DNA from: Micromonospora sp. WMMD1082
GTDB lineage: Bacteria > Actinomycetota > Actinomycetes > Mycobacteriales > Micromonosporaceae
DNA length: 64,000 nt
Direction of reading: 5' to 3'
Assembly: GCF_029626175.1 (NCBI RefSeq)
Contig: NZ_JARUBM010000002.1
Span: forward strand, 434,001-498,000
Positions 9,661 to 50,567 of the stretch are shown piece after piece. Within the stretch, counting starts at the first letter, position 1. Every line of letters begins with the position of its first letter. A program made the position numbers and the translations under genes. The notes beneath the pieces were generated by a model. It worked only from the letters and a program-made list of their open reading frames with translations, did not search any database and was not told the DNA's origin.

Positions 9661-9700
9661 GCGTGTAAACACCCGCCGGGGAGCGCCGGAGCGCGACGCG

Positions 9701-9811
9701 GGAGTGACGGAGTGACCCCAGTAGCTACACTCCCTTATTTCTTCTTCTAGAGCTTCTTCTTCTTCTAGAGAGAGAAATATAGGAGTGTAGCAACTGGGGT
9801 CACTTCTACAC
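9701..9811. repeat. 111-bp long-hairpin repeat, copy A (after integrase)
   Basis: A near-perfect 94-bp inverted repeat (9711-9804) with arms of about 43 bp: AGTGACCCCAGTAGCTACAC opens it and its complement closes it, with a TTCTTCTTCTAGAG-rich interior. Copy B (38370-38480) has exactly the same length and flanks. Where the arms differ between copies some changes are compensatory (a G:C pair in A is T:A in B), so the RNA or cruciform structure is kept. It begins 40 bp after the integrase stop. Confidence 0.85.
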
Positions 9812-9904
9812 TCACCTGCATATTCACAGGGCACGCAGGGTACGGCTAGGGTTACTCACCCGACCGCCCTCGACTACTCACCCCGCCCGCCGGAGGTCTC
9901 GAAG

Positions 9905-10533: not shown

Positions 10534-10719
10534 TCAGGCGCTGCGCTTCGCCAGCTCGACGAAGCCACGCCACGCGGCGGGCTCAAAGGCCAGCGTCCCG
10601 CCGTCACGGTCCTTGGTGTCGCGGACGAGGACAACGCCCGCGAGGTTGTCGGCGACCTCGACGCAGTCGCCACCGTTGTTGCCGCTCTTGCTGCTCTTGC
10701 GCCACTGCGCACCGGTCAT
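10534..10719 (-). CDS. DUF397 protein
   Basis: 61 aa, starting MTGAQWRKSSKSGNNGGDCV and ending with the TLAFEPAAWRGFVELAK pattern diagnostic of DUF397. These proteins are found in actinobacteria next to XRE/DUF5753 regulators. The ATG overlaps the regulator's stop (ATGA at 10716-10719), so the two are coupled. An alternative start at 10728 is possible. DUF397/DUF5753 pairs influence development and secondary metabolism in streptomycetes, and some are described as toxin-antitoxin-like (family knowledge). Confidence 0.88.
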   Translation of the reverse strand: MTGAQWRKSSKSGNNGGDCVEVADNLAGVVLVRDTKDRDGGTLAFEPAAWRGFVELAKRSA

Positions 10720-11486
10720 TCTTCCCATGATGCTGTCGCTTCCCTGATGAGGTCGAGGGACTGCTTCCGCGACAGGGCGTCGCCGCGGATTCGCTCCCAC
10801 CGTCGATTAAGCGTAGCAACCTCGGTCGGCTGGTCGACAATCTGCGACCGCGCCTGACTGTCGACGTTCCCGAGCACGCTCCCGTCTCCCAGCTCAGCCA
10901 GCGTGAACGGCCCGCCGAGGCCCGGGTACATGCCGACGCTCGCCGGCACGACGTGCACGGAGATCGAGGGCCGCCGGGCACACATCTCGATGTGCGCGCA
11001 CTGCTCGTACATGAGCACGCGATCGCCGTACGCGTCCCGGCGCAGGACCATCTCGTCCATCACCACGACGAGTACCGGCGCGTCGTCCCGGTCCAGCACC
11101 GCTTGCCGCTGTACGCGCGCTTCGGCGAGCTGGTCGGCCTCCTCGGCGGTCAGCTTCTCTCCGGCGAGCGTCGCCCGTGCGTACTCCTCGGTTTGCAGTA
11201 GACCCGGGATCCAGGCGAGCTGAAAGGCGCGCAGCGACACGGCTACACGCTCGATGTCCGCCCACCGCCGGAACCAGGTCGGTTCCTGACGTTTGAGAAC
11301 GTCCGGCCAGAGGTCCGCCACCTCGCGGCTGAGTGCCGCAGCGACCCGCTTCCGGGTCTTTGGCCGCGGAATGCGCCCGTGGCTTGCCCACCGCGCGGCG
11401 GTCTTCGGGTCGACCCCGACCTGAGCCGCGAGACTTTCAGCGGTTTCGCCAGCCTCGGCCATGGCGGCGACAATGGCACGGTTCAT
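10716..11486 (-). CDS. XRE-family HTH regulator with DUF5753
   Basis: 256 aa. The N-terminal HTH (about residues 8-60: ETAESLAAQVGVDPKTAARW) is followed by a DUF5753 sensor-like domain (from about 80: ERVAVSLRAFQLAWIPGLLQTEEYARATL, through VHVVPASVGMYPGLGGPFTLAEL). It is on the minus strand, opposite almost every phage gene, together with the DUF397 gene. It is either a bacterial cargo pair captured by the phage or a lysogeny-expressed regulator. It is a second candidate repressor but has no palindrome near its promoter. Confidence 0.85.
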   Translation of the reverse strand: MNRAIVAAMAEAGETAESLAAQVGVDPKTAARWASHGRIPRPKTRKRVAAALSREVADLWPDVLKRQEPTWFRRWADIERVAVSLRAFQLAWIPGLLQTEEYARATLAGEKLTAEEADQLAEARVQRQAVLDRDDAPVLVVVMDEMVLRRDAYGDRVLMYEQCAHIEMCARRPSISVHVVPASVGMYPGLGGPFTLAELGDGSVLGNVDSQARSQIVDQPTEVATLNRRWERIRGDALSRKQSLDLIREATASWEE

Positions 11487-11763
11487 TCCTGGTCCTTCCT
11501 GGACGTCCATGGGGCGTTGATATTCCATTGTGCTACGGGGTGTGAGCGCCTGGCAACGGTTGGCAGGGTGGTTGGTGTGACGGAGCTGCCGGCAGGAGGC
11601 CAAGGGGGTGCCCCCGGCGGCAACGTCCAGGGGCCGCCCCCTCTTCCGGCGAGCACCGGGGCGGCCCCTTCCAACATCGACGGAGGAGGGCCCGCCGTGT
11701 CCCAGCAGAAGCCCGCGAACGCCGTCCCGGCGTCGCGCTGGTCCGACCGGCACAACCGTTGCC

Positions 11764-12171
11764 ATGCCCGGTGAGCCGCCGGACCTGCCCCAACGCGTGC
11801 CCCTCGCGCCGGGCAGCGTCCCCGCGATCCTCGCGACCGGCTGCGGCCCGCGGGTCCGCCCACTTCGCCGCGCGTCCCTCCCGGCTGCGATCCGGCGCCG
11901 CGAGCGTGACCGGGTGAGCGGCGACCTCGACATCCACACCCCGGCCCGCCCGACGTGGCGCTGTCGGGGGTGCGGCGCACCGTGGCCGTGCCAGCCTGCG
12001 AAGCTGCGCCTGCTCGCGGCGTACAAGGGCAACATGCCGGGGCTCATGGTCTACCTGGTGAAGCTCCGCCAAGAGGCCGCCGACCAGCTCGCCGAGCTGG
12101 ACTCGGGCACCCCTCCGGCGGACCTGCACGTCCGGTTCACAGACTGGATTCCGGCCGACCCCTCGAAGTAA
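11764..12171 (+). CDS. Small CxxC-containing actinobacterial protein (neighbour of XRE/DUF397 loci)
   Basis: 135 aa from ATG 11764; GTG 11914 (MSGDLDIHTPARPTW) is an alternative that removes a basic, weakly conserved N-terminus. The conserved part is TWRCRGCGAPWPC followed by QPAKLRLLAAYKG and a helical tail ending FTDWIPADP. Proteins of this pattern commonly accompany DUF5753/DUF397 genes and are sometimes mislabelled flavin reductase. A 25-codon frame (11697-11774) with a good GGAGGAGG site precedes and overlaps it and may be a leader peptide. Confidence 0.6.
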   Translation: MPGEPPDLPQRVPLAPGSVPAILATGCGPRVRPLRRASLPAAIRRRERDRVSGDLDIHTPARPTWRCRGCGAPWPCQPAKLRLLAAYKGNMPGLMVYLVKLRQEAADQLAELDSGTPPADLHVRFTDWIPADPSK

Positions 12172-12228: not shown

Positions 12229-12232
12229 GCGT

Positions 12233-12261
12233 GAACACCTGTGGCACCGCTGGCGCATATG
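12233..12261 (+). promoter_or_regulatory. Phage promoter P1 (GAACAC-N17-CATATG)
   Basis: GAACAC 12233-12238, 17-bp spacer ending CTGGCG, CATATG 12256-12261. It is a member of the ten-copy family. The HNH gene ATG is at 12268, the expected initiation point, so the message may be leaderless. Confidence 0.75.
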
Positions 12262-12267: not shown

Positions 12268-12969
12268 ATGACACGAGAGATCGCGGTCCGCTGGCGCGTG
12301 CGACCGGGGCGAGAGTGCCGGTACTGCGGCGAGGCGCGGCTGAGTGAGATGGTGCGCCACGCACGCAAGCGGGACGGGCACGCTACGGAATGCCTTAGGT
12401 GCTCGCGTGCTCGCTACACCCTCAGCCGTGACGCGCAGAAGGCGCGAGCTGCCGCGTACTACGCCGCGAACCGCGACAAAGTTCTATCTCGCCGCCGAGC
12501 GGATCGAGACAGGGTGCTGGCAGGTCAGCGTGCGGTCTTTGCTCGCTACACCGCGCGGACTGACGAGCAAATCTCGGCCTCTCAGTCGCGGCTGCGACCT
12601 GACGGGCTGAAGCGCTGCCGTAGGTGCTGCCAACTGGTCGCCCTGAGCGCGTTCACGTCCGACCGGAGCAGGCCCGACGGACTTCATGGGGTCTGCCGCG
12701 TCTGTGACAGCTCCAGGCTTCTCCGCATCGCTGCTCCCCGCTGGTCCGACGAAGACCTTCACGCCTGTGTCTACTGCGGCGCCCCGTTTGAGCACGTCGA
12801 CCACGTCTGGGCGTCGTCCGAGGGCGGTCCCGACCACCCGCAAAACCTCGTCCCCGCGTGCGCTGATTGCAACCTGTCGAAGAACGCCCGCCCCGTCGAA
12901 GACTTCATTCCCGCCGACCTGCTCGCGCTGGTCGCTGAATGGCCCGTGAGGGTTGTCGAGTTCGACTGA
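12268..12969 (+). CDS. HNH endonuclease (free-standing homing type)
   Basis: 233 aa. There are three Cys pairs: CRYCGEARL with CLRCSRARY near the N-terminus, CRRCCQLVALSAF with CRVCDSS in the middle, and the catalytic HNH at the C-terminus (CVYCGAPFEHVDHVWASSEG then NLVPACADCNLSKN, about 170-225). The central basic region (RDAQKARAAAYYAANRDK) is a likely DNA-binding linker. Start ATG 12268 follows the P1 -10 box by 7 nt; 12241 and 12259 would lie in the promoter. It probably nicks phage or host DNA as a selfish gene. Confidence 0.85.
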   Translation: MTREIAVRWRVRPGRECRYCGEARLSEMVRHARKRDGHATECLRCSRARYTLSRDAQKARAAAYYAANRDKVLSRRRADRDRVLAGQRAVFARYTARTDEQISASQSRLRPDGLKRCRRCCQLVALSAFTSDRSRPDGLHGVCRVCDSSRLLRIAAPRWSDEDLHACVYCGAPFEHVDHVWASSEGGPDHPQNLVPACADCNLSKNARPVEDFIPADLLALVAEWPVRVVEFD

Positions 12970-12996
12970 ACACCCGGACCGCCGCTGGCGCATAGG
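12968..12996 (+). promoter_or_regulatory. Phage promoter P2 (GAACAC-N17-CATAGG)
   Basis: GAACAC 12968-12973, 17-bp spacer, CATAGG 12991-12996, starting at the last codons of the HNH gene. The downstream leader carries GTGTCCGAACACGACACGAG, nearly repeated after P3. Confidence 0.8.
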
Positions 12997-13036
12997 CCCC
13001 GTGTCCGAACACGACACGAGGCCCGAGGAGGCCAGC

Positions 13037-14128
13037 GTGACCGAACCCATCACGATCGAGGCAAGCAACCCGAGCGGCACCCCCGCGACCCTCCACGTTG
13101 CAGCGTCGGTGCGCGTTGCGGGCGGGCTGTACCTGGGCACCCGCGCGGGGTATCCCAGCCCGTTCTACTCGCACTTCTCCCCCGCCGCCGCCCGCGAGCT
13201 GGGCGCGTGGCTGGTCGAGCGGTACGCCCTGCCGAGCTGGACGCCGAAGGAGGGCGACGAGGTTCGCATCCTGCCGGACGCCGAGGACTACGAAGGCGAC
13301 ACAGTCTCGACCGGCGGCGCGACGCGGGGTGAGGTGGTCGAGGGCGTCGACCGCGACGGCGATATCCGGGTGAAGCTCCTCAACGGCACCCTTCAGGGCT
13401 GCCTCGTCTACATGCTCCCGCGGTTCGTTGCCCACGCCGACGCGGTCCTCCCGGCCGACGGGACGCCGGAGCCCGCCGGAGAGCACGCCGACGGTACGCC
13501 GGTCGTGATCGTGACCGACGACGCGCAGGGCTGGTCGGGCACGCCGGCCAGGCTGCCGAAGGGCACGCCGGCCGTGATCGTCGAGTCGGCACGGGTGTTC
13601 GACGCCCTGCGTGGATACGTCGTCAAGGCCATGCGCGACGGCGCGCTGACGGCGGTCTCGGTCCGTCCCGGCGACGTCGCCCTGTCGATGCCGGCCGAGC
13701 CGGAGCCGGAGACGAGCACCGGCACCGAACGGCCCTGGCAGGTCGGCGACGTCGGCGAGCTGACCGAGCACTACATGCTTCACAAGCCCGGCGACCGCAT
13801 CCGCGTGACCGAGGCCGAGGCCCCGTACGACCCGGAGGACGGGCCGCTGATCCGGGGCGCGTGGCTGGACGGCGAGCAGGACGGCCCCAGCGTCTTCGCC
13901 CGCCGGCTGCGCCGCGTGGTCGAGGCCGGTCGGCCCTGGGCCGTCGGCGACGAGGCGATCGTGACGGAGGGCGGGAAGTACGCCGACCGCTTCCGCACGG
14001 GCGAGCGGGTCCGGATCAGCAGGGTCGCCCCCTCGGTCAGCGGCGGTACCGACGTGGTGCGCGCCACGTCGATCGCGCGCCCCGCCGAGGACTGGGCCCT
14101 TCGTACCGACGTGCTGCGCCGCCCGTAA
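13037..14128 (+). CDS. Hypothetical phage protein with SH3-like repeats
   Basis: 363 aa from GTG 13037, preceded by GAGGAGG. Three or more short beta-rich repeats begin with a W-x-x-GD-E core (SWTPKEGDEVRILPDAEDY, PWQVGDVGELTEHY, PWAVGDEAIVTEG), each resembling an SH3-like barrel. The pattern KEGDEVRILPDA recurs in the next gene as VGEEYRLLPGA, so the two are paralogous. It is expressed from P2. No enzymatic residues are evident; a binding role is inferred only from the fold-like repeats. Confidence 0.65.
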   Translation: MTEPITIEASNPSGTPATLHVAASVRVAGGLYLGTRAGYPSPFYSHFSPAAARELGAWLVERYALPSWTPKEGDEVRILPDAEDYEGDTVSTGGATRGEVVEGVDRDGDIRVKLLNGTLQGCLVYMLPRFVAHADAVLPADGTPEPAGEHADGTPVVIVTDDAQGWSGTPARLPKGTPAVIVESARVFDALRGYVVKAMRDGALTAVSVRPGDVALSMPAEPEPETSTGTERPWQVGDVGELTEHYMLHKPGDRIRVTEAEAPYDPEDGPLIRGAWLDGEQDGPSVFARRLRRVVEAGRPWAVGDEAIVTEGGKYADRFRTGERVRISRVAPSVSGGTDVVRATSIARPAEDWALRTDVLRRP

Positions 14129-14141
14129 CACCATCGAGAGA

Positions 14142-14172
14142 GCCCGTCCCCACCTCGGGGGCGGGCTTTTTC
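14142..14172 (+). terminator. Rho-independent terminator before P3
   Basis: GCCCGTCCCC and GGGGGCGGGC form a stem with a 4-5 nt loop, followed by TTTTT. It closes the P2 transcription unit. Confidence 0.85.
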
Positions 14173-14187
14173 GTGTCTCCGGGCCGT

Positions 14188-14216
14188 GAACACCCGGGCC
14201 CCACCTGGCACATAGG
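14188..14216 (+). promoter_or_regulatory. Phage promoter P3 (GAACAC-N17-CATAGG)
   Basis: GAACAC 14188-14193, 17-bp spacer, CATAGG 14211-14216. It lies 16 nt after the terminator and 37 nt before the next GTG start. Confidence 0.8.
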
Positions 14217-14253
14217 CGCTGTGTCCGAACGAGACACGAGCCTGGGAGGGCCT

Positions 14254-15123
14254 GTGACGCAGATTTTCGAGCACGTCGACCCCTGCGCCGACCGAATGAC
14301 CGTCGAAACCGGCGGCGAGGACGACCTGATCGTCCGGAACAGCACCGCCGCGCATGTGGGAGTGATTCTCGCCCCCGCCGACGTCGACCGCCTGCGCGAC
14401 GCCCTGAAGCCGTACGGTACCCGCCGCGACAGCGACGCCCCGGCCGAGGTGGTCGAGGTCGGCGAGGAGTACCGGCTACTGCCCGGCGCGCGGTACACAT
14501 TGCAGTCAGGCACCCACGCGTCCACTGCCGTCGAGGACGGCGTGACCCGCGTGCGCGTGAAGCGCCGCTGGGGCAGCGACGGTGACTGGGAGGTTGAGGG
14601 CCTGGACGGCGCGCGCTCCGAGCGGGCCTACATCGTCCAGCCGAAGTACCTCGCCCCGCTCGACGAGCTGACGCAGGGCACGCCCCCGCTCGCTCCCGGC
14701 GACCGGGCGCGCGTGACGGGCGACACGGCGAGCTGGGGTCACGGCTTCAAGGCTGGCGACGTGGTGACCCTGGTTGGGCGGGGCGACAACTACGGCAGCC
14801 ACCAGGGCAATCCTCGTGGCTGGCTGTGCCAGCACGCCGACGGAGTGACGGATTGGTATGTCCACGCGGACGACCTCGCGCCGCTCGGCTCGCTGGCGAC
14901 CGACGAGGCGGTCGAGGCCCTGCGCGAACGGCTGGGCGTGGCGCCGACGTTCACGGTCCACGACGAGGCACACGCCTTCTTCGGCACGACGACCGCCGGC
15001 CAGCTCGACCCGGCGCGCGTCGCCGCGGTCCGTGAGGCCATGGCGATCCTCGGCGACGACGGCGCGAGCGTCGACCTGGAAGCCCTCCTCGCCGTGGCTG
15101 AGTTCCTGATCGGGGACGCGTAG
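14254..15123 (+). CDS. Hypothetical phage protein, SH3-like repeats (paralogue of 13037 gene)
   Basis: 289 aa from GTG 14254 with GGGAGG upstream. Residues about 65-140 carry VGEEYRLLPGARYTLQ and RVRVKRRWGSDGDWEVEGL, and about 148-205 a PPLAPGDRARVTGD repeat, as in the neighbouring 13037 and 15434 genes. A C-terminal helical region follows (EALRERLGVAPTFTV onward). Its stop overlaps the next gene's GTG by one base. First gene of the P3 operon; function unknown. Confidence 0.65.
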   Translation: MTQIFEHVDPCADRMTVETGGEDDLIVRNSTAAHVGVILAPADVDRLRDALKPYGTRRDSDAPAEVVEVGEEYRLLPGARYTLQSGTHASTAVEDGVTRVRVKRRWGSDGDWEVEGLDGARSERAYIVQPKYLAPLDELTQGTPPLAPGDRARVTGDTASWGHGFKAGDVVTLVGRGDNYGSHQGNPRGWLCQHADGVTDWYVHADDLAPLGSLATDEAVEALRERLGVAPTFTVHDEAHAFFGTTTAGQLDPARVAAVREAMAILGDDGASVDLEALLAVAEFLIGDA

Positions 15124-35910: not shown

Positions 35911-36068
35911 CGGCGTTTCCGGGGTCGGTTCGCCGGGCGAGCGTTCGGCGGTCGCCCGGGAGCTGGCGGGCGGTTGGGCGGGCGTGGGCGTGCCTGCGGC
36001 GAAGTGCGTCCGGCGGCGATTGGCGGGACGCCCGAGTCCCGGCGACGAGACGGGCGGGAAACTCCCGT

Positions 36069-36097
36069 GAACAGGCGTCCTCGGCCTGGCGCATTGG
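36069..36097 (+). promoter_or_regulatory. Phage promoter P5 (GAACAG-N17-CATTGG)
   Basis: GAACAG 36069-36074, 17-bp spacer, CATTGG 36092-36097, followed 37 nt later by ATG 36134. It opens the right-hand early block. Confidence 0.8.
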
Positions 36098-36580: not shown

Positions 36581-36963
36581 CCGAGGGGCAAGAGGAATTC
36601 GTCTTCGCGGATCAGTCGGTGGTCGGCACGGAAGACCTCCGCATCCTCTTCGACGCCGTGTGTAACTCGCTCGACTTCGGTAGCGGATTCCTCGACACGG
36701 AAGAGGTCGAAGCACTGCGGCGACTGGCCGAAACGCTCGGCGTTGACCCGATGGTCGCGACGCCGAGCGAGTTCCGTGCTCAGTACGCGCACGACTTCGA
36801 GCCATGCCCCCCGCCGCCGGGGCCGTGGCGTGTCTCCACGATGGGCGGTCCGATCGAGACGGACGAGGCGTACGCCGCGCGGGTTGCCGCAGTGATCGCC
36901 CGGTGTCGACACTGCGGCCGGGCCGCCGACGAGAGGCCACACACGTTGAAGGAGGCCGCGTGA
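36577..36963 (+). CDS. Hypothetical phage protein
   Basis: 128 aa from GTG 36577. The helical N-terminal half (VGTEDLRILFDAVCNSLDFGSGFLDTEEVEALRRLAETLGV) and a C-terminal CRHCGRAADER finger suggest a small DNA- or protein-interaction role. Not recognised. It sits directly before the nucleotide kinase and overlaps it by 4 nt. Confidence 0.6.
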   Translation: MTEGQEEFVFADQSVVGTEDLRILFDAVCNSLDFGSGFLDTEEVEALRRLAETLGVDPMVATPSEFRAQYAHDFEPCPPPPGPWRVSTMGGPIETDEAYAARVAAVIARCRHCGRAADERPHTLKEAA

Positions 36964-37571
36964 CCTACCCGGGTGAGGCCGTTACCGAGCTGATCGAGGC
37001 CACCTTCTCCCGTCGCCCGGCCCGCCCACCTCTCATCGGCGTGATGGGGAAGAAGCGCGCCGGAAAGGACACGATCGCCGCACGCCTCGTCGAGGCCCAC
37101 GGTTTCCGCCAGTACGCCTTCGCGGACGCGCTCCGGGAGTGCGCGCTGATCGCCGATCCGATCGTGACGCCGCTGGACACGGTCGGGCGGTCCCTGCGGC
37201 TGTCCGATGTGGTCTCGGCGGTCGGCTGGGAGGAGGCGAAGGCCCACCGCGAGGTGCGGCGTACCCTGCAACAGTTTGGTGTCAGCGTGCGCCACCTCGA
37301 CCCGCACTTCTGGGTCCGCGTGGTCATGGACGAGGTCGCGCACAGGTCACAGCCCGTGGTGATCACGGACGTCCGCTTCCCCAACGAGGCGGATGCGATC
37401 GAGGCCGCCGGGGGCGTGCTCTGGCGGGTCACCCGCCCTGGTCAGGACGAGTCCGACCAGCACATCAGCGAGACCGCGTTGAGTGGTCGCCCGGCGCACG
37501 CAGCGCTACACAACAGGTCGGATCTTCACTCTCTGCTGAAAGAGGTTGACAGACTGGCGTCACGTCTGTAA
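36960..37571 (+). CDS. Deoxynucleoside monophosphate kinase
   Basis: 203 aa from GTG 36960. A P-loop GVMGKKRAGKDTIA (about 26-39) and the VVITDVRFPNEADAIEAAGG region (about 128-147) match phage dNMP kinases of the T4 gp1-like P-loop superfamily. It converts dNMPs to dNDPs to feed phage DNA synthesis. Last gene of the P5 unit, followed by a terminator. Confidence 0.85.
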   Translation: MTYPGEAVTELIEATFSRRPARPPLIGVMGKKRAGKDTIAARLVEAHGFRQYAFADALRECALIADPIVTPLDTVGRSLRLSDVVSAVGWEEAKAHREVRRTLQQFGVSVRHLDPHFWVRVVMDEVAHRSQPVVITDVRFPNEADAIEAAGGVLWRVTRPGQDESDQHISETALSGRPAHAALHNRSDLHSLLKEVDRLASRL

Positions 37572-37754: not shown

Positions 37755-38375
37755 ATGAGCGACGCACGCGACGAGCTAAGCGAAACGCTAGTGAAGACGC
37801 TGCGTGCGCTGCGCCGGACCGCTGCGGCAATCGAGCGCGCTGGCCGTGAGGTCCCCGACGATCTAACCGCCCGCCGGACAGCCCTGTATCGCGAGGCAGC
37901 ACAGTGGGCATTCGATCTGCGTGAGTATTTCCTAACCGCCGAGAACGAGCCGGATTGGTCGGGCCGGACCGGCGCCTACAAAGCTCACCTACGCGACCTA
38001 TACGACCGCGCGGGGTACAGCCGCGAGGACGCCGCAACCGTACAGGTAGCCGTCCGGTACCACCTCGGCCGGCTCGTCCGCGACCGCCTCGGCGCGGCGA
38101 CGGTAACCGAGCTGGGCCTAACCCCCGGCGGCTACGTCGAGCGCAAGCGTGAGGCCCGTCAGGCGACCCTCGCCGAACTGGACGCCGTGCGCAACGCCGC
38201 CAGCAGCCCCGACGTCAGCCGAGCGATAGCGGGCGCGCTGGTCGTGCTTCAGCGGGTGTCCGTCGCTGAGGTCGCCGAGCTGCACGGCACCGCGCGGACC
38301 CAGGCGCGGACGGTGCTCTCCCGGCTCGTGCGCCGCGCGGAAGAGCTGCGCGAGGCGGTGACGCCGGAGGAGTGA
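37755..38375 (+). CDS. Candidate phage repressor (C-terminal HTH)
   Basis: 206 aa. The N-terminal 90 residues are helical (LSETLVKTLRALRRTAAAIERAG, LYREAAQWAFDLREYFLTAE). The C-terminus has VSVAEVAELHGTARTQARTVLSRLVRRAEELRE, a convincing HTH pattern (about 170-202). Its promoter contains palindrome O5 and its 3' end abuts the same 111-bp hairpin repeat that follows the integrase. It is isolated by terminators on both sides, as expected for a gene expressed in the lysogen. The repressor role is inferred; no family was recognised. Confidence 0.55.
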   Translation: MSDARDELSETLVKTLRALRRTAAAIERAGREVPDDLTARRTALYREAAQWAFDLREYFLTAENEPDWSGRTGAYKAHLRDLYDRAGYSREDAATVQVAVRYHLGRLVRDRLGAATVTELGLTPGGYVERKREARQATLAELDAVRNAASSPDVSRAIAGALVVLQRVSVAEVAELHGTARTQARTVLSRLVRRAEELREAVTPEE

Positions 38376-38480
38376 CGAAGTGACCCCAGTTTCTACACTC
38401 CCTTATTTCTTCTTCTAGAGCTTCTTCTCCTCCTAGAAGAAGAAATATAGAAGTGCAGAAACTGGGGTCACTTCTACACG
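38370..38480. repeat. 111-bp long-hairpin repeat, copy B (after candidate repressor)
   Basis: Same length and flanks as copy A (9701-9811). The 94-bp inverted repeat is 38380-38473. It begins inside the last codons of the candidate repressor gene. About 10-12 base differences from copy A, several in paired positions and compensatory. Confidence 0.85.
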
Positions 38481-38535
38481 CAGCCCCGCCCGCCGGCTCG
38501 GCCCGCACCCGGCGGGCTTCCGCGTCTCCGCAGGT

Positions 38536-38564
38536 GAACAGCTAGGCCCTCCCTGGCGCATAGG
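38536..38564 (+). promoter_or_regulatory. Phage promoter P6 (GAACAG-N17-CATAGG)
   Basis: GAACAG 38536-38541, 17-bp spacer, CATAGG 38559-38564, 37 nt before the GTG at 38601. Confidence 0.8.
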
Positions 38565-38600: not shown

Positions 38601-39410
38601 GTGCCAAAGATCCATACCATTTCCCGGGGTGGCTCCCGGTTCTACGTCTCGCCCGAGACCGGCAAGAAAGCCCCGGGCGTAACCTCGATTCTCGGCATGC
38701 TGCCGAAACCGTTCCTACAGCACTGGGCAGCAAAGGTCGTCGCCGAGTACGCGACCGACAACCTCGGCGAGCTGGTCGGGCTCCGGCTCAACGGCGAGCG
38801 TCAGGGCGTCATCGACTTCCTGAAGGGCGCCCCGCGCCGCTCGACCGGCGCCGCTGCCGAGACCGGGACCGCCGTGCACGACCTCTTCGAGAAGCTGGCC
38901 AAGGGCGAGCCCATCGGACGCGTGCACCCGGACTACCGGCCGTTCGTCGAGCACTTTGAGGCGTTCACGCGGGAGTTCGAGCCCGAGTTCGTGTTCCTCG
39001 AAGAGACCGTCTGGTCCGAGGAGTTCGACTACGCAGGTTCATTCGACGCCTACGCGGTCATCGACGGCGAGCGGGTTTTCCTCGACTGGAAGACGACCCG
39101 CAGTGGCGTTCACCCCGAGGTGGCGCTTCAGCTCGCCGCGTACCGCTTCGCCGACTTCATCATCCGCCCGGACGGCTCGCGCGTCCCGCAGCCCAGCTCG
39201 ACCGGCGGCGGCGTGCTGCACGTCCGCCCGGAGGGCTGGGGCTTCTACCCGGTGCGGGCCGACGAGGAGACCTTCGAGTATTTCAAGGTCCTCCGGCAGG
39301 TCTTCACCTGGGACCGCGAGGTGAAAGAGGCCGTGGTCGGTATGCCGATCAACGCGAAGCCCTCGTCGATGCCGGCCCGCCGGACCGCCGCCCCGCGGAG
39401 GGCTGCATGA
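38601..39410 (+). CDS. PD-(D/E)XK nuclease, RecB/Cas4-like exonuclease
   Basis: 269 aa from GTG 38601. Catalytic motifs are in order: GTAVHDLFEKLA (G-x-x-x-H), an Asp in YAGSFDAYAVIDGE, the D-W-K in RVFLDWKTT, and VALQLAAYRFA with the Q-x-x-x-Y of RecB nucleases. It probably makes single-stranded ends for phage recombination or degrades host DNA. First gene of a five-gene P6 unit. Confidence 0.88.
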   Translation: MPKIHTISRGGSRFYVSPETGKKAPGVTSILGMLPKPFLQHWAAKVVAEYATDNLGELVGLRLNGERQGVIDFLKGAPRRSTGAAAETGTAVHDLFEKLAKGEPIGRVHPDYRPFVEHFEAFTREFEPEFVFLEETVWSEEFDYAGSFDAYAVIDGERVFLDWKTTRSGVHPEVALQLAAYRFADFIIRPDGSRVPQPSSTGGGVLHVRPEGWGFYPVRADEETFEYFKVLRQVFTWDREVKEAVVGMPINAKPSSMPARRTAAPRRAA

Positions 39411-39963: not shown

Positions 39964-40175
39964 CCGAACACGAGGACTGCCGGTACTGGGGCCTGACCCG
40001 CATGCAGTGCGCGCGGTATCACGTCCGGCTCGCCCGGTACTACGCCGATCGGGCGCTCACCAACGCCGCAGAGTCGGCCCGATTGGCGTCCTCGGCGACG
40101 CGGGCTGCCTTGGTGGCGACCGCCGCCGTGGTCGTGCTCTTCATGAGTCACCTCGCTGCGCTCGTCTTTGCCTGA
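39960..40175 (+). CDS. Small phage membrane protein
   Basis: 71 aa from GTG 39960. An N-terminal part with CRYWGLTRMQCARYH and a C-terminal transmembrane helix (AALVATAAVVVLFMSHLAALVF). Promoter P7 starts at its stop codon. Function unknown. Confidence 0.6.
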   Translation: MTEHEDCRYWGLTRMQCARYHVRLARYYADRALTNAAESARLASSATRAALVATAAVVVLFMSHLAALVFA

Positions 40176-40202
40176 ACAGCTCGCGCCCCGCTGGCGCATA
40201 AG
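40174..40202 (+). promoter_or_regulatory. Phage promoter P7 (GAACAG-N17-CATAAG)
   Basis: GAACAG 40174-40179 overlaps the previous stop; 17-bp spacer; CATAAG 40197-40202; the RDF-like gene starts 60 nt later. Confidence 0.78.
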
Positions 40203-40261: not shown

Positions 40262-40981
40262 GTGGGCTTGCGAATTTGGGAGACCGACCCCGAGGCCGAG
40301 CCGAAACCCCGCCAGAACTTCGCGCGGGACCTGGTCGGCCGGTTCCGGTCCGGTTATCAGGTCAACGGCCGTCCGGCCAGCTTGGAAAAGTGGCGGATCA
40401 CGACCGGCGACCCCGAGGTGGCCGAGGCCATCCGGGGCCTGTTCGGTGGTGACAAGGCGCAGAGCTGGGAGACCAAGGGCGAAGACAACCTGGAGGTGTT
40501 CACCGGGGCCGAGCGGGTGAAGATCATCCTCGACGGCCCGAAGGCGATCCGGCAGGAGATGGTCCTGTGGGGCCGCTCCGGTGCGATCCGGCGCTGTGAC
40601 GGCGTCGATCAGACCGGCACGGACGCCGACGACCCGGCGAAGGGTCAGCCGTGCGAGTGCCCGGCCTCCTTCCAGGACAGGAAGGACGCCGCGCGGGCCG
40701 GGCGGGGGTGCCAGCCCTCGACGACGATCTTCTTCACGCTGGCGGACTCGCCCGAACTGGGCCGGTTCAAGTTCAACAGCGGGTCGTGGTCACTCGTCCG
40801 CGACATCGTGACCACGGAGAAGGCGCTCGGCGAGATCGACGGTCCGGCGTACGCCTGGCTGAGCCTGGAAGTCGTGTCGTACGAGGACAAGAAGATCGGC
40901 AAGACGAAGTCCTTCACGAAGCCCGTCGTCGATGTGATCGGGGCCGCCCCGAAGCGCGAGGACGACGAACCTCCGTACTGA
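40262..40981 (+). CDS. phiC31 Gp3-like protein, probable recombination directionality factor
   Basis: 239 aa from GTG 40262. It begins GLRIWETDPEAEPKP, then NFARDLVGRFRSGYQVNGRP, ALEKWR-like ITTGDPEVAEAIRGLFGG, ILDGPKAIRQEMVLWGR, IRRCDGVDQ and FNSGSWSLVRDI, the pattern I associate with the Gp3-like family founded by the phiC31 RDF. In phiC31, Gp3 binds integrase and switches it to attL x attR excision. With a serine integrase in the same prophage, this is the best RDF candidate. Relatives occur in phages without serine integrases, so other roles are possible. Confidence 0.75.
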   Translation: MGLRIWETDPEAEPKPRQNFARDLVGRFRSGYQVNGRPASLEKWRITTGDPEVAEAIRGLFGGDKAQSWETKGEDNLEVFTGAERVKIILDGPKAIRQEMVLWGRSGAIRRCDGVDQTGTDADDPAKGQPCECPASFQDRKDAARAGRGCQPSTTIFFTLADSPELGRFKFNSGSWSLVRDIVTTEKALGEIDGPAYAWLSLEVVSYEDKKIGKTKSFTKPVVDVIGAAPKREDDEPPY

Positions 40982-42574: not shown

Positions 42575-42738
42575 AGATCGTCTCTCTCGGCTGTCGGTAC
42601 TGCGGCCACCCGGAGCGCGACCACGCCCGGCGTTGGCACCCGCTCGTGAAGTGGCATGCCTGGACCGAGCCGACCCGGGCGCAGATCGTTGAGCGACTTC
42701 GGCGCAGGCTGAACAGCTCGGCCGCCCCTGGCGCATAA
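42571..42738 (+). CDS. Small zinc-finger-like protein
   Basis: 55 aa from GTG 42571. CRYCGHPERDHARRWHPLVKW forms a Cys2/His-rich motif. P8 starts inside its last codons, so the gene end and the promoter overlap. Confidence 0.55.
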   Translation: MKIVSLGCRYCGHPERDHARRWHPLVKWHAWTEPTRAQIVERLRRRLNSSAAPGA

Positions 42739-42739: not shown

Positions 42740-42786
42740 CACTTTGACCGCCCGCACGGGCACCCTCGACGACAAGGGAGCACAGC

Positions 42787-42954
42787 GTGAACGAGACCAT
42801 CGAGACCGCGAACACCGCGCCGCAGGCCCCGGCGACCGTGACCGAGATCCGGACCTGGGCGCGGGAGCGGGGGATCGCCGTCGGTCAGCGCGGCCGGCTG
42901 TCCGGCGACGTCCGGACCGCCTTCGAGACCGCCACCGGCCGCAAGGCCGCCTGA
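42787..42954 (+). CDS. Mini Lsr2-like nucleoid protein
   Basis: 55 aa from GTG 42787. The C-terminal half, EIRTWARERGIAVGQRGRLS then GDVRTAFETATG, is the Lsr2 DNA-binding domain, with the RGR AT-hook-like core that inserts in the minor groove. It lacks the N-terminal dimerisation domain. It could bind AT-rich DNA directly or compete with host Lsr2 silencing of the phage (inference). Single gene between P8 and a terminator. Confidence 0.8.
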   Translation: MNETIETANTAPQAPATVTEIRTWARERGIAVGQRGRLSGDVRTAFETATGRKAA

Positions 42955-42968
42955 CCCACCCGCACAGC

Positions 42969-43000
42969 AAAGAGCCCTCGGCTTCGGCCGGGGGCTCTTT
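42969..43000 (+). terminator. Terminator after Lsr2-like gene
   Basis: AAAGAGCCCTCGG (42969-42981) and CCGGGGGCTCTTT (42988-43000) form a stem with a 6-nt loop. Confidence 0.85.
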
Positions 43001-43016
43001 CGCGTTTCCGGCCCTT

Positions 43017-43045
43017 GAACACCCCTCCCCCGCCTGGCGCATTGG
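43017..43045 (+). promoter_or_regulatory. Phage promoter P9 (GAACAC-N17-CATTGG)
   Basis: GAACAC 43017-43022 (preceded by TT, giving TTGAACA), 17-bp spacer, CATTGG 43040-43045. It drives the primase-helicase gene 34 nt downstream. Confidence 0.8.
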
Positions 43046-43079
43046 CCCTTCGTCCTGCTCGACGACGAAGGGCCACCCT

Positions 43080-45581
43080 GTGAAGTTGACCGATTTCCTC
43101 GACCGCCTCGGCGCGGCCGACGACGCTGACGGCTGGCTCGCCGTCTGCCCGGCGCACGCGGACTCCCGGCCGTCCCTGCGGATCGCAGTCGGCGAGTCCG
43201 GCGCGGTGCTGCTGAAGTGCCGGGCCGGGTGCTCGACCGTGGACGGCGAGCCCGGCCGGCTGCGCCCCGGCGCGGTGCTGTTGGCGCTCGGCATGTCCGT
43301 GGCCGAGCTGCACAACATCGACACTACCGACGCCCCGACGCGCGCCCGGTCGACCTCGACCCCGGCGAGCCCGGCTGCGGTGGCGGCGCTGGCGGCGCAG
43401 CTCGATGGGTGGGTTAACGACTCGCACACGCCCGGCGGTGACGAGGCGTACCGCTACGCGGCCGACCGGTTCGGGATCAGCTCGACCGACTGGGACCGGC
43501 TAGGGCTCGGATACGCCGTCGACCTGGGCGGCGGCCCCCGCCTCGTCGTCCCGTTCCGTGACCGCGACGGCGTCCCGCGCGGCTACCAGGCCCGCGCGCT
43601 CGACCCCCGGGCCAAGGTCCGGTGGCTCGGCGCGAAGAGCCCGCAGGGCGAGAGCTGGGCACGCGTCGGCTACCTCCCGGGCGAGGCTGGCTGGGCCGAG
43701 CTGGTCGTGACCGAGGGCCCCGGCGACGGCCTGACCGCGTGCGCGACCGGGTACGACGTCGCCTTCGTGCGCGGCGCTGGTCTGGCCGCGAGCGTGGCGG
43801 ACGAGGTCGCCCAGCTCGCCGACGGCCGCCCGGTCGTGGTGTGCGGCGACGCTGACCCGTCCGGCGACAAGTTCGCGCGTACCCTGTGCGCCGAGCTGGC
43901 GAAGCGCGGCCTGTCCGCGCGGTCGGTCCGTCCGCCGGTCGACGGCGACGACCTGACCGACTGGCGCGGCCGACACCCGGAGGGCTTCAGCACGGAGTTC
44001 ATCCGGGCGGTCGTCAGCGCCGAGGACCCCGGCGCGCTGAAGGCCCGTCTCGACGCATGGACGGACGCCGACCTGACCGAGGTCGCCTCGGCCCGCCGGC
44101 TGAAGGACCACTTCGAGGCGGCCGGGTCCGGCGTGCGCTACTCCCCCGAGGCCGGCTTCTTCATTCTGCGGGGCGGCGTGTGGCGGGCCGACAAGCTCGA
44201 CGAGGTCCGGACCGCAGCGCAGGACGTAGCGGCGTCGATCTGGGCTGAGGCGTTCGAGCTGGCCGAGGCGCTGAAGGAGGTCGCCCGCGACGGCGACAAG
44301 GCCGAGGCGAAGGAGCTGGGCGCCCGGGTCGGGAAGCTGAAGGCGTTCGCGAAGGCCGCGAACAGCTCGAAGGGTATTGACGCGATGGTGCGCGAGCTGC
44401 GCGCCCTGCGCGGCGTGGCCGCTGACCTCGACCAGTTCGACCGGCACCATCACCTGCTCGCGACCCGGAACGGCGTGATCGATCTGCGTACGGGCGAGCT
44501 GCGCCCGCACGACCCGGAGCTGTTGCTGACCCGGATGGTCGACCTCGACTACGACCCCGAAGCGACCGCCCCGAGGTGGGAGGCGTTCCTTCGCGAGGTC
44601 TTCCCGTACGAGCGGCACGCAGGCTTGCCCGCGTACATGCGGCGCCTGGTTGGCTACGGGATCACGGGCGAGACCGGCGAGCAGTGCTTCGTGGTGCTCT
44701 GGGGTAAGGGCGCCAACGGCAAGAGCGTCTACACGGACACGTTGACGGAGGTCTTCCGCGAGCTGACCGTGACGACCCCGTTCGCCACCTTCGAGGAGAA
44801 GCCGTCCGGGGGCATCCCCAACGACCTCGCCGCGCTGAAGGGCGCCAGGTTCGTCTTCGCGGCCGAGGGCGAGCAGGGACGGCCGATGGCTGAAGCGGTG
44901 CTGAAGCGGGTCACCGGCCGGGACAGCATCAGCGCCCGGTTCATGCGGAAGGAGTTCTTCGAGTTCCGCCCGACGTTCCTCCTGCAACTCGCGACCAACT
45001 TCAAACCCCAGTTCCGCGGGCAGGACGAAGGGCTCTGGCGCCGGGTCAAGCTCGTCCCCTGGGAGCGGTACTTCGCCCCGGCCGAGCGCGATCACAAGCT
45101 GGGCGCAAAGCTGCTCGCCGAGGCCCCCGGCATCCTCGCCTGGGCGGTCCGCGGCGCGGTCGAGTGGTACCGCGACGGGCTCGGCGACCCGGCGGCGATC
45201 AAGGACGCCACGCGGGAGTACCGGGCGACCTCCGACGCCCTCGCCGGCCTGATCCCGGGCGTGTTCACGCTCGAAGAGGGCGGCAAGGTGCAGGCCCGGA
45301 TCGCGTGGGACGCGTACCGCCAGTGGTGTGAGGACGAGGCGCTACCGGCCAAGGAGCGCTGGACCCGGCGGGCGTTCTTCGCGGCGCTGGAAGAGCGCGG
45401 AGCGGTGAAGAAGCGGGCGAACACGGGCGTGGTCTTCGATGGCATCCGGCTCGCCCGGCCGACCGACCAGGCGGCCGAAGAAAACCCGGGCGAAGCGCGA
45501 ACAGTCGCTAGCCCGCTGGCGCATAGGCAAGGCGACAGCACCCCTACCGCCGGGCCGAGTCTCGACGACGTCTTTGCATAG
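43080..45581 (+). CDS. DNA primase-helicase (CHC2-TOPRIM-D5/SF3)
   Basis: 833 aa from GTG 43080. It has an N-terminal zinc finger CPAHADSRPSLRI with CRAGC (about 22-55), TOPRIM motifs LVVTEGPGDGLTA and VVVCGDADPSGDKFA (about 215-268), a D5_N linker region, and an SF3 helicase with Walker A VLWGKGANGKSVYTDTL (about 540-556), Walker B-like RFVFAAEGEQ and sensor FLLQLATNFKP. Combined primer synthesis and unwinding for phage replication. Promoter P10 lies inside the last 30 codons. Confidence 0.93.
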   Translation: MKLTDFLDRLGAADDADGWLAVCPAHADSRPSLRIAVGESGAVLLKCRAGCSTVDGEPGRLRPGAVLLALGMSVAELHNIDTTDAPTRARSTSTPASPAAVAALAAQLDGWVNDSHTPGGDEAYRYAADRFGISSTDWDRLGLGYAVDLGGGPRLVVPFRDRDGVPRGYQARALDPRAKVRWLGAKSPQGESWARVGYLPGEAGWAELVVTEGPGDGLTACATGYDVAFVRGAGLAASVADEVAQLADGRPVVVCGDADPSGDKFARTLCAELAKRGLSARSVRPPVDGDDLTDWRGRHPEGFSTEFIRAVVSAEDPGALKARLDAWTDADLTEVASARRLKDHFEAAGSGVRYSPEAGFFILRGGVWRADKLDEVRTAAQDVAASIWAEAFELAEALKEVARDGDKAEAKELGARVGKLKAFAKAANSSKGIDAMVRELRALRGVAADLDQFDRHHHLLATRNGVIDLRTGELRPHDPELLLTRMVDLDYDPEATAPRWEAFLREVFPYERHAGLPAYMRRLVGYGITGETGEQCFVVLWGKGANGKSVYTDTLTEVFRELTVTTPFATFEEKPSGGIPNDLAALKGARFVFAAEGEQGRPMAEAVLKRVTGRDSISARFMRKEFFEFRPTFLLQLATNFKPQFRGQDEGLWRRVKLVPWERYFAPAERDHKLGAKLLAEAPGILAWAVRGAVEWYRDGLGDPAAIKDATREYRATSDALAGLIPGVFTLEEGGKVQARIAWDAYRQWCEDEALPAKERWTRRAFFAALEERGAVKKRANTGVVFDGIRLARPTDQAAEENPGEARTVASPLAHRQGDSTPTAGPSLDDVFA
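45499..45527 (+). promoter_or_regulatory. Phage promoter P10 (GAACAG-N17-CATAGG), intragenic
   Basis: GAACAG 45499-45504, 17-bp spacer, CATAGG 45522-45527, inside the 3' end of the primase-helicase gene. It would add expression to the following genes. Confidence 0.72.
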
Positions 45582-46485: not shown

Positions 46486-46926
46486 ATGAGACAGCACCCC
46501 GAGGCCCGTTTCTGGGCGAAGGTCGCCGTTCCGGATGAGAACGGGTGTGCGCGGTGGCTGGGATCGACCCAGCCAAACGGCTACGGGAGGTTCTGGGACG
46601 GGTCTCGCCCCGTCTTCGCCCATCGGTTCGCGTTCGCCTGGGCAAACGGCAGGGTCCCTGCCGGGCTTGAGGTCGACCACTTGTGCGGCATCCGCAACTG
46701 CGTAGCGCCCGCCCACCTCGAATCAGTGACCCGAGCTGAGAACGTCCGGCGCAGCTCGGCCCCCGCACTAGCGGGAGCACGAAGCGCGGCTAAGACCGAG
46801 TGTCCGAGCGGTCACCCGTACGACGCAGCGAACACGCGGCGAACTAAGGACGGCAAGCGCGTGTGCCGTACGTGCCAGCGCAGCCACGACCTCAACAGCC
46901 GAGCCCGGAAGGGGGCTAGAGCATGA
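46486..46926 (+). CDS. HNH endonuclease (homing type) next to DNA polymerase
   Basis: 146 aa. RFWAKVAVPDENGCARWLG and NGYGRFWDGSRPVFAHRFAFA form the N-terminal beta part; the HNH core is LEVDHLCGIRNCVAPAHLE (about 62-80). A C-terminal Cys4 region (CPSGHPYD, CRTCQRS) follows. Such genes are frequent beside phage polymerases, as free-standing homing endonucleases. It overlaps the polymerase ATG by 4 nt. Confidence 0.88.
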   Translation: MRQHPEARFWAKVAVPDENGCARWLGSTQPNGYGRFWDGSRPVFAHRFAFAWANGRVPAGLEVDHLCGIRNCVAPAHLESVTRAENVRRSSAPALAGARSAAKTECPSGHPYDAANTRRTKDGKRVCRTCQRSHDLNSRARKGARA

Positions 46927-48752
46927 AGTCCCTGGTGCACACTGTGGCCGGATCGACTGTGGGAATCCACTTCCCCGAGCGGCGCGAAGACCTCGACGGC
47001 TTCCGCGCGTTCCTGGCGGGCGGTGACAAGGTGCTTGCCTTCGACACCGAGACGACCGGCTTGGACGTTTACACGGGTACCCATCGGCTTCGACTCGCTC
47101 AGTTCGGTAACGGCCGGGAAGCGTGGGTGCTGCGCGCCGACCTCTTCGCCGAGGAGATCGTCGCCGCGCTGCGCCAGCCGCGCCCGTTCGTCGCCCATAA
47201 CGCGCCGTATGACCTCCTCGTCGTTGATCGGCACCTCGGCGTCAAGCTCGAAGACCTCGGCCCGCGCACTTATGACACGCGCGTGTTGGGGCACCTCCTC
47301 GACCCGCGGGCCCCGCAGGAGGGCGGGATCGGCCTGGGCCTGAAGCCGCTCTCGGCGGTCTACGTCGACCCGGACGCCCCGGACACGCAAGAGGGCCTGA
47401 CGGCGGTCTTCCGGTCGCTCGGGCTGACGAAGGCGACCGGCTGGGCCGGCATCCCGATCGACAACGAGACCTACGTCAGGTATGCCGGCCTCGACGTGAT
47501 CCTGACGCACCGCCTCTTCCGCGAGCTGGGCCCGCTGGTCCGAGAGATCGGCCTCGACCACCTGAGCAAGTTCGAACATCACCTTCAGGTGCTGCTCGCG
47601 ATCCTTCAGCGAAAGGGCTTCCGCCTCGACGTACCCTACGTCGAGCGCCTGAAGGCCGACCTGCTCGCCGAGGCCGAGCGGTTCCGGACGGTCTCCCGGC
47701 GGTACGGCGTCGAGAACGTCAACAGCACGGCCCAGGTGGCGACCGCACTCGACGCGATGGGCGAGACCCTGACCGAGCGGACGGCGTCCGGCGCAACGAA
47801 GGTCGACAAAGGCGTACTGCTCCCGCTGGCGGATCTCTCGCTGGGATGGGAACGCCTCGACGTGCGCGAGCCCAACCCGCTCGCCGATGCGGTGCTGCGC
47901 AGCAAGAGGTCCGAGAAGTGGGCGACCGCCTACGCGCAGGCGTTCCTCGACCTGAAGGACGCCGACGATCGGCTTCACCCGTCGATCGGCGCGCTTCAGG
48001 CCCGGACCGCCCGCATGTCGATCAGCCGGCCGCCGCTGCAACAGCTTCCGTCGTCGGACTGGCGGGTGCGACGGGCGTTCATCGCGGACCCGGGGCAGGC
48101 CATCATCGCGGCCGACTATCAGGCGGTCGAGATGCGGGTTCTCGCGGCGCTGAGCGAGGACGCCACGATGAAGAAGGCCATTGCGGACGGCGTAGACCTG
48201 CACAGCTTCACGGCCGAGCGGGTCTTCGGGCCGGACTTCACGAAGGCACACCGGAAGATCGCGAAGGCCGTCGGCTTCGGGAAGGTCTACGGCGGTGGCG
48301 CGGCGACGATCACCCGGCAGACCGGCGCCGACCTCGCCAGCGTGAAGACCGCCCTCGCGGCGTACGACGCGACCTTCCCGGGGATCAAGCGCTACTCGCG
48401 GCGCCTCATGGAGCGCGCCCAGTTCGGCAAGCGCGAGGTTACGACGCCGTCCGGTCGTCACCTGCCGTTGGACAGGGACAGGTTGTACGCCGCGACAAAC
48501 TACGTCGTGCAGAGCACCGCTCGCGACCTGCTCGCCCAGGCCATCGCGGACATCTTCGCGGCGGGTCTCGGCGACCACCTGTTACTGCCCGTGCATGACG
48601 AGCTGATCGCCCAGGCGCCGACGGAGAGCGCCGAGGAGGTGATCCGGGAGATTGGTCGGGTCATGGAGAGCACTTTCTACGGCGTCCGGATCGAGTCCGA
48701 CCCGGAGGTCTACGGCCCGAGCTGGGGCCACGGATACGGCGCCCCGGAGTGA
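46923..48752 (+). CDS. DNA polymerase I-type (phage replicative, with 3'-5' exonuclease)
   Basis: 609 aa. The exonuclease domain has Exo I FDTETTGLDV (about 40), Exo II FVAHNAPYDLLVVD (about 92) and Exo III YAGLDVILTH. The polymerase domain has motif A ADYQAVEMRVLAAL (about 400), motif B HRKIAKAVGFGKVYGGG (about 445) and motif C VHDELI (about 560). No 5'-3' exonuclease domain. Replicates the phage genome with the primase-helicase. Confidence 0.95.
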   Translation: MKSLVHTVAGSTVGIHFPERREDLDGFRAFLAGGDKVLAFDTETTGLDVYTGTHRLRLAQFGNGREAWVLRADLFAEEIVAALRQPRPFVAHNAPYDLLVVDRHLGVKLEDLGPRTYDTRVLGHLLDPRAPQEGGIGLGLKPLSAVYVDPDAPDTQEGLTAVFRSLGLTKATGWAGIPIDNETYVRYAGLDVILTHRLFRELGPLVREIGLDHLSKFEHHLQVLLAILQRKGFRLDVPYVERLKADLLAEAERFRTVSRRYGVENVNSTAQVATALDAMGETLTERTASGATKVDKGVLLPLADLSLGWERLDVREPNPLADAVLRSKRSEKWATAYAQAFLDLKDADDRLHPSIGALQARTARMSISRPPLQQLPSSDWRVRRAFIADPGQAIIAADYQAVEMRVLAALSEDATMKKAIADGVDLHSFTAERVFGPDFTKAHRKIAKAVGFGKVYGGGAATITRQTGADLASVKTALAAYDATFPGIKRYSRRLMERAQFGKREVTTPSGRHLPLDRDRLYAATNYVVQSTARDLLAQAIADIFAAGLGDHLLLPVHDELIAQAPTESAEEVIREIGRVMESTFYGVRIESDPEVYGPSWGHGYGAPE

Positions 48753-49636: not shown

Positions 49637-49664
49637 CTCCGCTAACCGGTTAGCGGAGTAGCGT
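49637..49664 (+). promoter_or_regulatory. Promoter with operator O7 for the sigma-like gene
   Basis: O7 CGCTAACCGGTTAGCG (49640-49655) is the centre of a perfect 22-bp palindrome (49637-49658). CTCCGC lies at the -35 position and TAGCGT (49659-49664) at the -10. CTTTAAGAGAGTCTTAAG lies just upstream. The ATG is at 49747. Confidence 0.75.
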
Positions 49665-49746: not shown

Positions 49747-50511
49747 ATGTCCGCATTCGCCCAGCTCTGGGACACCCCCGCCGAGCCGATCGCGCTCGAC
49801 GCCGTTGAGGCCGAGCTGATCGCCGCAGCCGCGGCCGGCAACTCCGCCGCCCAGCTTCGCCTCTTCGTCGCGTACGTGCCCGTCCTCCGGCGGGTGCTGG
49901 CGCCCTACGTCCGCGTGCTGCCGCTCGACGACGCCCGGCAGGCCGCCTGGCTCGGTCTGGTCGCCGCGTGCCGCGCGTTCGACCCGGCTCGCTCGACCCG
50001 GCTCGCCTCGATCCTGCGCGAGCACACCGCTGAGGCGCTGAGCGAGGCCGCACAGGAGGCCGGGGCGGGCTTCACCGTGCCGAGCCGGACGGTCGCACGG
50101 TTCTTCGGCATCCTGGCTGCGGCGGACGGTGACCCCGCCCAGGCCGCCGCGCTCGCCCCGGCGCACTCGATGACGCCGGAGACCTTCTGGGCCGTGCACG
50201 CGGCGGTTACGGCCTCAACCTCGCTCGACGACGCGATCGAGGCGCACGGCGACGGCGGGCTGTCCCCGATCATCGCCCCGCGAGAGATCGCCGACACGGA
50301 GGACCGCATCCTCTGCGATCTCGCGCTCCGGTCGGTCGACGACTTCGCCCGCGACGTGGTCGCGCTGGCGTACGGCTTCAGCGACTTCGACCCGCAGCCG
50401 GACGCTGAGATCGGTCACCGGCTCGGGGGCTACTCCCGGCTGAAGATCCAGCGCACGCGCACGCGCGCCCTCGCCACCATGCGTCGTGCCCTTGGCGCGC
50501 TAACCGGTTAA
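49747..50511 (+). CDS. Sigma-70-like factor encoded by the phage
   Basis: 254 aa with GGGAGGG upstream. It has region 2-like helices (SAAQLRLFVAYVPVLRRVL, LPLDDARQAAWLGLVAACRA, FDPARSTRLASILREHTAEA, about 36-100), a region 3-like segment (VPSRTVARFFGILAAADGD) and a region 4-like HTH (DAEIGHRLGGYSRLKIQRTR, about 222-242), the order of sigma-70 proteins without region 1.1. It would direct host RNA polymerase to phage promoters. Palindromes O7 (promoter) and O8 (over its stop codon) flank it. It is the best candidate reader of promoters P1-P11. Confidence 0.75.
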   Translation: MSAFAQLWDTPAEPIALDAVEAELIAAAAAGNSAAQLRLFVAYVPVLRRVLAPYVRVLPLDDARQAAWLGLVAACRAFDPARSTRLASILREHTAEALSEAAQEAGAGFTVPSRTVARFFGILAAADGDPAQAAALAPAHSMTPETFWAVHAAVTASTSLDDAIEAHGDGGLSPIIAPREIADTEDRILCDLALRSVDDFARDVVALAYGFSDFDPQPDAEIGHRLGGYSRLKIQRTRTRALATMRRALGALTG

Positions 50512-50513: not shown

Positions 50514-50538
50514 GATCTGCCCGGGGGCCGGAATCCGT

Positions 50539-50567
50539 GAACACCCGGCCCCCGCCTGGCGCATAGG
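50539..50567 (+). promoter_or_regulatory. Phage promoter P11 (GAACAC-N17-CATAGG)
   Basis: GAACAC 50539-50544, 17-bp spacer, CATAGG 50562-50567, 39 nt before the ATG at 50607. Confidence 0.8.

Follow-up and report, generated by a model that had tools for sequence, protein, structure and literature searches.

The window analysed here, a 64,000-nt stretch of the Micromonospora sp. WMMD1082 genome (7.44 Mb in two contigs), carries a prophage encoding a serine integrase, terminase, portal and tape measure proteins, an exonuclease, a primase and a DNA polymerase. No attachment site emerged when the sequence next to the integrase gene was searched for shared 14-mers; a 121-nt direct repeat (88% identical) is present at 9694-9814, after the integrase gene, and at 38362-38482, before the exonuclease promoter. 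The features relevant to the present analysis are as follows:

12232-12259, + strand: promoter-like site, left arm (pattern search)
12967-12994, + strand: promoter-like site, left arm (pattern search)
14187-14214, + strand: promoter-like site with CACATA, left arm (pattern search)
36068-36095, + strand: promoter-like site with CGCATT, 5′ of the genes that lead up to the nucleotide kinase (ORF 36804-37571)
38535-38562, + strand: promoter-like site preceding the exonuclease ORF 38601-39410 (pattern search)
40173-40200, + strand: promoter-like site preceding the RDF ORF (pattern search)
40262-40981, + strand: recombination directionality factor (RDF), phiC31 gp3-like (Pfam Gp3-like, 6.7e-27; 40% identity to phiC31 gp3)
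42710-42737, + strand: promoter-like site 5′ of the primase region (pattern search)
42744-45581, + strand: DNA primase (PHROG_6088, 1.5e-238); mechanical ORF, start probably later
43016-43043, + strand: promoter-like site with CGCATT, directly 5′ of the primase-matching part (residue 114 on) of ORF 42744-45581
45498-45525, + strand: promoter-like site with CGAACA, within the 3′ end of the primase gene and 5′ of the polymerase gene
46923-48752, + strand: DNA polymerase (PHROG_17, 3.9e-144)
49637-49664, + strand: palindrome CTCCGCTAACCGGTTAGCGGAG and adjoining TAGCGT box, read as a putative repressed host-type promoter of the sigma gene
49747-50511, + strand: sigma-70-family protein P0001, 254 aa (open frame; PHROG_351, PDB profile search, fold)
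50500-50511, no strand assigned: palindrome copy with one mismatch, across the sigma stop codon (palindrome search)
50538-50565, + strand: promoter-like site immediately 3′ of the sigma gene (pattern search)

Profile searches, the predicted fold and comparison with PDB chains confirm that the product of ORF 49747-50511 is a divergent sigma-70-family protein. The original prediction had seen regions 2, 3 and 4 in sigma-70 order; regions 2 and 4 are indeed recognisable, but region 3 can be placed by position only. P0001 matches PHROG_351 ('RNA polymerase sigma factor') over residues 21-250 (E 3.9e-13), and a profile built from six relatives matches SigA chains in the PDB (best E 6.4e-10, profile positions 13-245), the match running through sigma-70 regions 2 to 4. 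The protein fails the curated cut-offs for the sigma-70 family of both Pfam and NCBIfam: Pfam Sigma70_r2 aligns with residues 39-86 (8.4e-4) at 19.5 bits, below its cut-off of 24, and the NCBIfam sigma models give weak matches (best 4e-7), every one below its cut-off. In the structural test set beforehand, which opposed a sigma-type fold to an unrelated one, the predicted model (pLDDT 77.5, pTM 0.50) is of the sigma-factor type. Nearly all matches listed by Foldseek and VIA-align (50 each) are sigma-factor chains, and an RpoS fragment superposes on residues 10-105 of the model with an rmsd of 2.4 over 95 residues; the whole-chain rmsd is near 20 because domain placement differs.

Residues 62-246 of P0001 align at 23% with a sigma factor from its own genome. 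P0001 lacks the promoter-melting aromatics found in the host sigma (YATWWIRQ), its aligned stretch reading ILREHTAE, so that promoter opening may differ. The protein matches 124 public records, with identity up to about 44% among the matches listed, and most of the 60 records listed are annotated as 'DNA binding protein'. Such annotations, together with the weak region 2 scores and the missing aromatics, could point to a sigma-derived activator or appropriator that would bring the host holoenzyme to the sites by binding them, rather than to a sigma subunit; the collinear match through SigA regions 2 to 4 speaks against this, as does the covariation with region 2 described below.

The pattern [TC]GAACA-N16-C[GA]CAT[AT] identifies ten sites on the + strand and none on the − strand of the window, with no match in 200 first-order Markov control sequences. 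The set of ten sites proposed as promoters from the sequence is real, but its members are near-identical rather than identical: the exact form TGAACA-N11..13-CTGGCGCATA is found in six of the ten, and one site sits, contrary to the earlier picture, within the primase gene. In the whole genome the exact motif occurs six times, always inside the prophage (control matches: 0). The site designated P11, expected right after the sigma gene, starts at 50538. An exact search of IMG/VR with the window motif returned 63 contigs with one match apiece, which were taken as chance. The sites combine two boxes at a fixed spacing, lie on the coding strand shortly 5′ of gene starts and are non-palindromic. These properties, and the tie between site variation and a sigma-like protein, argue against another kind of phage repeat, e.g., a processing site, an operator or a start-associated element. 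Although repeats of unknown function, conserved and intergenic, have been reported in other actinophages (accessible part of PMC7302621), we find such a reading extremely improbable here.

Relatives of P0001, counted at E <= 1e-10, are encoded by 7 of 160 genomes of the same genus, across all of which three spelling patterns of the motif were counted. Each of the seven contains 6-10 copies of a single spelling type, the other two being absent: CGCATA (seven copies in G000, 10 in G035, nine in G070), CCGACT (nine in G106, seven in G135) or CCCACT (eight in G067, six in G109). The 153 genomes without the protein have at most two copies, all types summed (two in G019 and G027), and a backward control pattern gave at most one match per genome among the 160. 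The co-occurrence of protein family and motif, put forward as a check on the original prediction, was thus observed, with repeated motifs in 7/7 genomes with the protein and 0/153 without; the figure for this split, 2e-12, is indicative only, as it takes no account of the shared ancestry of these phages, which partly underlies the co-occurrence. Family-wide, a relative is detected at 1e-8 in 10 of 354 genomes, and the three additional genomes also have TGAACA sites (2, 4 and 5, one spelling each). Repeated, putative phage-specific promoters occur with the factor, as in the class of phage sigma factors with dedicated promoters. In G035, the sigma gene is present near both ends of contig 1 (3133-3900 and 7762050-7762817) and left-arm sites at 7723751 and 7772948 are 49,197 bases apart, which may reflect either prophages arranged in tandem or a join made during assembly.

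In Arthrobacter, Microbacterium and Curtobacterium phages, relatives that bear the annotation 'DNA binding protein', among them those of Reedo (gp44), Percival (gp51) and Mysterium (gp40), are found with the same gene order and promoter layout as in the window and with −35 and −10 spellings of their own. The common layout is TGRRYA, about 17 nt, GGC-XXX-CT, in which XXX varies between phages and is consistent within a phage. When annotated intergenic gaps of 17 such phages were scanned with TG[AG][AG][CT]A-N12..14-GG[CG], 68 matches were obtained on the coding strand versus 3 on the opposite strand. The phage's own five-base word is present at 66 of these 68 sites, a figure that shows consistency, since the word was derived from the same sites. 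The layout was found by pattern in 16 of the 17 phages and by eye in the seventeenth; Emotion scores 0 by pattern, its three TGGGCC sites having been seen by eye, SuMoo has just two sites by pattern, and Barnstormer has a mixture of two words. The Emotion genome (L118), with this unusual −35 box, encodes two adjacent relatives of the sigma gene (12923-13744 and 13868-14779). The words include GGACT, CCCCT, CATCT, ACCCT, TCTCT, CCTCT, GCACT, CGACT, GGCCT, GGTCT and GCTCT, and 13 distinct clear −10 words exist among the 30 phages compared. In a departure from the earlier picture, the spelling of the sites varies from phage to phage.

An unsupervised motif search returned the sigma motif in 6 of 11 non-Streptomyces phages (Liebe, Elezi, Tbone, DrManhattan, Floof and Reedo). 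In the remaining five, Sue2, Soondubu, Mysterium, Percival and Cen1621, different elements came up (e.g., terminators or host-type promoters), and the motif was taken from intergenic reading by eye and the fixed-layout pattern; the Percival repeat TTGCGC-17-TATAGT was set aside as host-type. Five Streptomyces phages lack the layout, with three scattered matches only, and IMG/VR searched with the Reedo protein yielded no relative.

Alternative host sigma factors with non-canonical promoters are common in actinobacteria, and the sites could in principle be promoters of such a factor, the phage protein having another role. The Dismasvirus phages AvGardian and Jovita, which encode remote relatives of the protein and have no layout match, would fit this explanation. 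Against it, five different −10 words, which one host sigma could hardly read, occur among Reedo, Tbone, Tweety19, Elezi, Nitro, KeAlii and Liebe, seven phages that were all isolated on Arthrobacter globiformis B-2979. Given also that the exact copies in the Micromonospora genome are all within the prophage and that repeated motifs are absent from genomes without the protein, we regard a host sigma as a very unlikely reader.

The site embedded in the primase gene recurs in these phages. In 27 of 30, the last 180 nt of the gene contain a −35-like box followed, after 13-14 nt, by GGC and the phage's own word, whereas no other phage's word was found in that layout in the 29 phages tested (Barnstormer not among them). 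The three misses, L008, Reedo and Liebe, have GGC and their own word, with a −35-like box one base off (by eye). As the words of the 17 annotated phages were taken from intergenic gaps only, the primase tail provides an out-of-sample test, which was passed in 15 of them. The encoded primase residues shift with the word (AHR, AHS, ADS, ALL, APS, AVS). Accordingly, two of the three primase residues that best track the −10 word are encoded by the embedded site; the third is V230.

Partial Mantel scans in 30 phages compared differences in the −10 word with 12-residue protein windows. The table was drawn from 34 aligned proteins, omitting L101 (two different words), the second Emotion paralogue, AvGardian and Jovita (no motif), and 626 valid windows of the polymerase, primase, RDF and exonuclease (primase tail excluded) served as controls. 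The association reaches 0.43 for sigma residues 34-54 (region 2.1), all control windows being at or below 0.34. The control maximum is also exceeded by sigma windows within 35-55 and 83-97 in the 12 Micromonosporaceae phages alone, by windows 71-82, 92-103 and 101-113 in the other 18, and by windows 37-54 after removal of four near-duplicates. Covariation of the −10 word is stronger with sigma regions 2.1 and 2.3-2.4 than with other phage proteins, unless the four CGCATA-type phages are removed, in which case no sigma window is above the control maximum (0.37 versus 0.38). Single residues do not clearly stand out, 3 of 232 sigma columns versus 5 of 1407 control columns reaching 0.30. This covariation with region 2 is as for a sigma factor that reads the −10 element itself, and we consider the activator or appropriator described above improbable. 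For the −35 box, the sigma maximum is 0.31 (0.27 in region 4.2) and controls reach up to 0.53; the association lies within the phylogenetic null and we therefore make no claim on this box. L232, present in 12/12 TGAACA phages and 0/18 others, aligns with an E of the host recognition helix and would connect region 4.2 with the −35 box; this connection was rejected, since it does not rise above the shared-ancestry signal in other proteins.

As predicted, palindromes flank the sigma gene, with CTAACCGGTTAG at 49642-49653 upstream and its copy at 50500-50511 over the stop codon. With up to two mismatches, CTAACCGGTTAG has nine matches in the window versus 0.57 expected. The gene's own promoter region contains the palindrome but lacks the sigma-type motif, and a putative host-type promoter is present instead. 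Among 12 Micromonosporaceae phages, a sigma-type site lies just 5′ of the sigma gene in none and directly 3′ of it in ten; the palindrome lies 110-124 nt 5′ of the start codon in seven (by script), and a TAGCGT-like box is visible in that region in nine (by eye). Further palindromes of this type are located at 8104, 26655, 37697, 40989, 52736 and 56240. Those at 52736 and 56240 lie between a −35-like TTGCGC and a −10-like TAGAGT or TAGGGT (at 52728 and 56232), an arrangement that fits a repressed host-type promoter; others stand at gene ends. These further palindromes are possible repressor operators and stoperator-like sites. ORF 37755-38375 (+ strand, 206 aa), which has no match among protein families, is a candidate repressor: it occupies the position of the 'immunity repressor' in the phiC31-like phages Dubu, Rowa and AbbeyMikolon, and the operator-like palindrome at 37697 is just 5′ of it. 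The case for ORF 10716-12047 (− strand) as immunity repressor was weakened, this HTH and DUF5753 protein having no real similarity to phiC31 c.

We conclude, with a probability of roughly 0.87, that P0001 is a phage sigma-70-family factor reading ten dedicated sites in a cascade from repressor to sigma to early genes. The link between the factor and its promoters, inferred in the original prediction, is now supported by comparison at the sequence level, through the sigma fold, the site set, the co-occurrence, the private spellings and the shared variation. For repressor action, holoenzyme formation, transcription and their order in time, we infer the following scheme. In the lysogen, a repressor bound to CTAACCGGTTAG palindromes would silence the host-type promoter before the sigma gene. 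Upon derepression, transcription by the host polymerase would yield the sigma factor, and this in turn would direct host core polymerase to the ten sites (TGAACA, 16 nt, CGCATA) that precede the left-arm genes and those for the nucleotide kinase, exonuclease, RDF, primase and polymerase. Among related phages, the factor and its sites have changed together, giving each phage its own −10 spelling.

The early promoters of phiC31 have reportedly been the subject of older work. The order exonuclease, RDF, primase, polymerase, sigma is common to the window and phiC31, in which gp12 follows the DNA polymerase gene, and both have a repeated motif before early genes, including that of the RDF (gp3 in phiC31). 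Profile comparison shows the gp12 protein (RefSeq product 'RNA polymerase sigma factor'; phrog_15865 at 5.9e-190) to be related to P0001 across regions 2 to 4 (95.3%, E 2.1e-8); relatives of gp12 occur in Streptomyces phages. However, gp12 is 396 aa long versus 254 for P0001, and the two belong to separate PHROG families, phrog_15865 giving no match to P0001, which matches phrog_351 only. The phiC31 motif, GGTTGCCGACT-CCTTAC, has no TGAACA box, and a copy stands directly before gp12, whereas none precedes the sigma gene in the window. In phiC31 (L003), nine GGTTGCC-type copies, most of them GGTTGCCGACT, are located at 18485, 21757, 22668, 23029, 25055, 27585, 29908, 31191 and 36224, ahead of early genes, those for the RDF and gp12 among them; they are possibly targets of gp12.

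SPO1 gp28 and T4 gp55 are phage sigma factors with dedicated promoters. Likewise, phiEco32 and 7-11 encode a sigma factor with predicted phage-specific promoters (accessible part of PMC4331800). By description, all four resemble the window phage in pairing a phage sigma with phage-specific promoters; they are lytic, whereas the window phage is temperate with early replication genes and the RDF as putative targets, and in its family the −10 word changes from phage to phage. Percival and Floof are described in PMC7302621, with no sigma factor or promoter repeat mentioned for them in its accessible part, and the accessible parts of PMC5311408 and PMC11302927 hold nothing bearing on a link between sigma family and promoter motif. 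We found no such link for the PHROG_351-type actinophage family in the open-licence literature.

At somewhat less than even odds, we suggest that in many temperate actinophages the sigma factor and its promoters coevolve like lock and key. The −10 triplet would be a phage-private code selected against cross-activation of the early genes of co-resident or co-infecting phages, and it would be strong enough to have altered codons at the primase C-terminus, in which one promoter is embedded. More generally, a family mostly annotated as 'DNA binding protein' becomes a natural collection of sigma-promoter pairs, several from phages that share a single laboratory host strain, making the old question of how sigma and promoter specificity change jointly directly testable. 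The family may also offer separate promoter sets for actinobacteria, and it suggests what might read the phiC31-type early motif.
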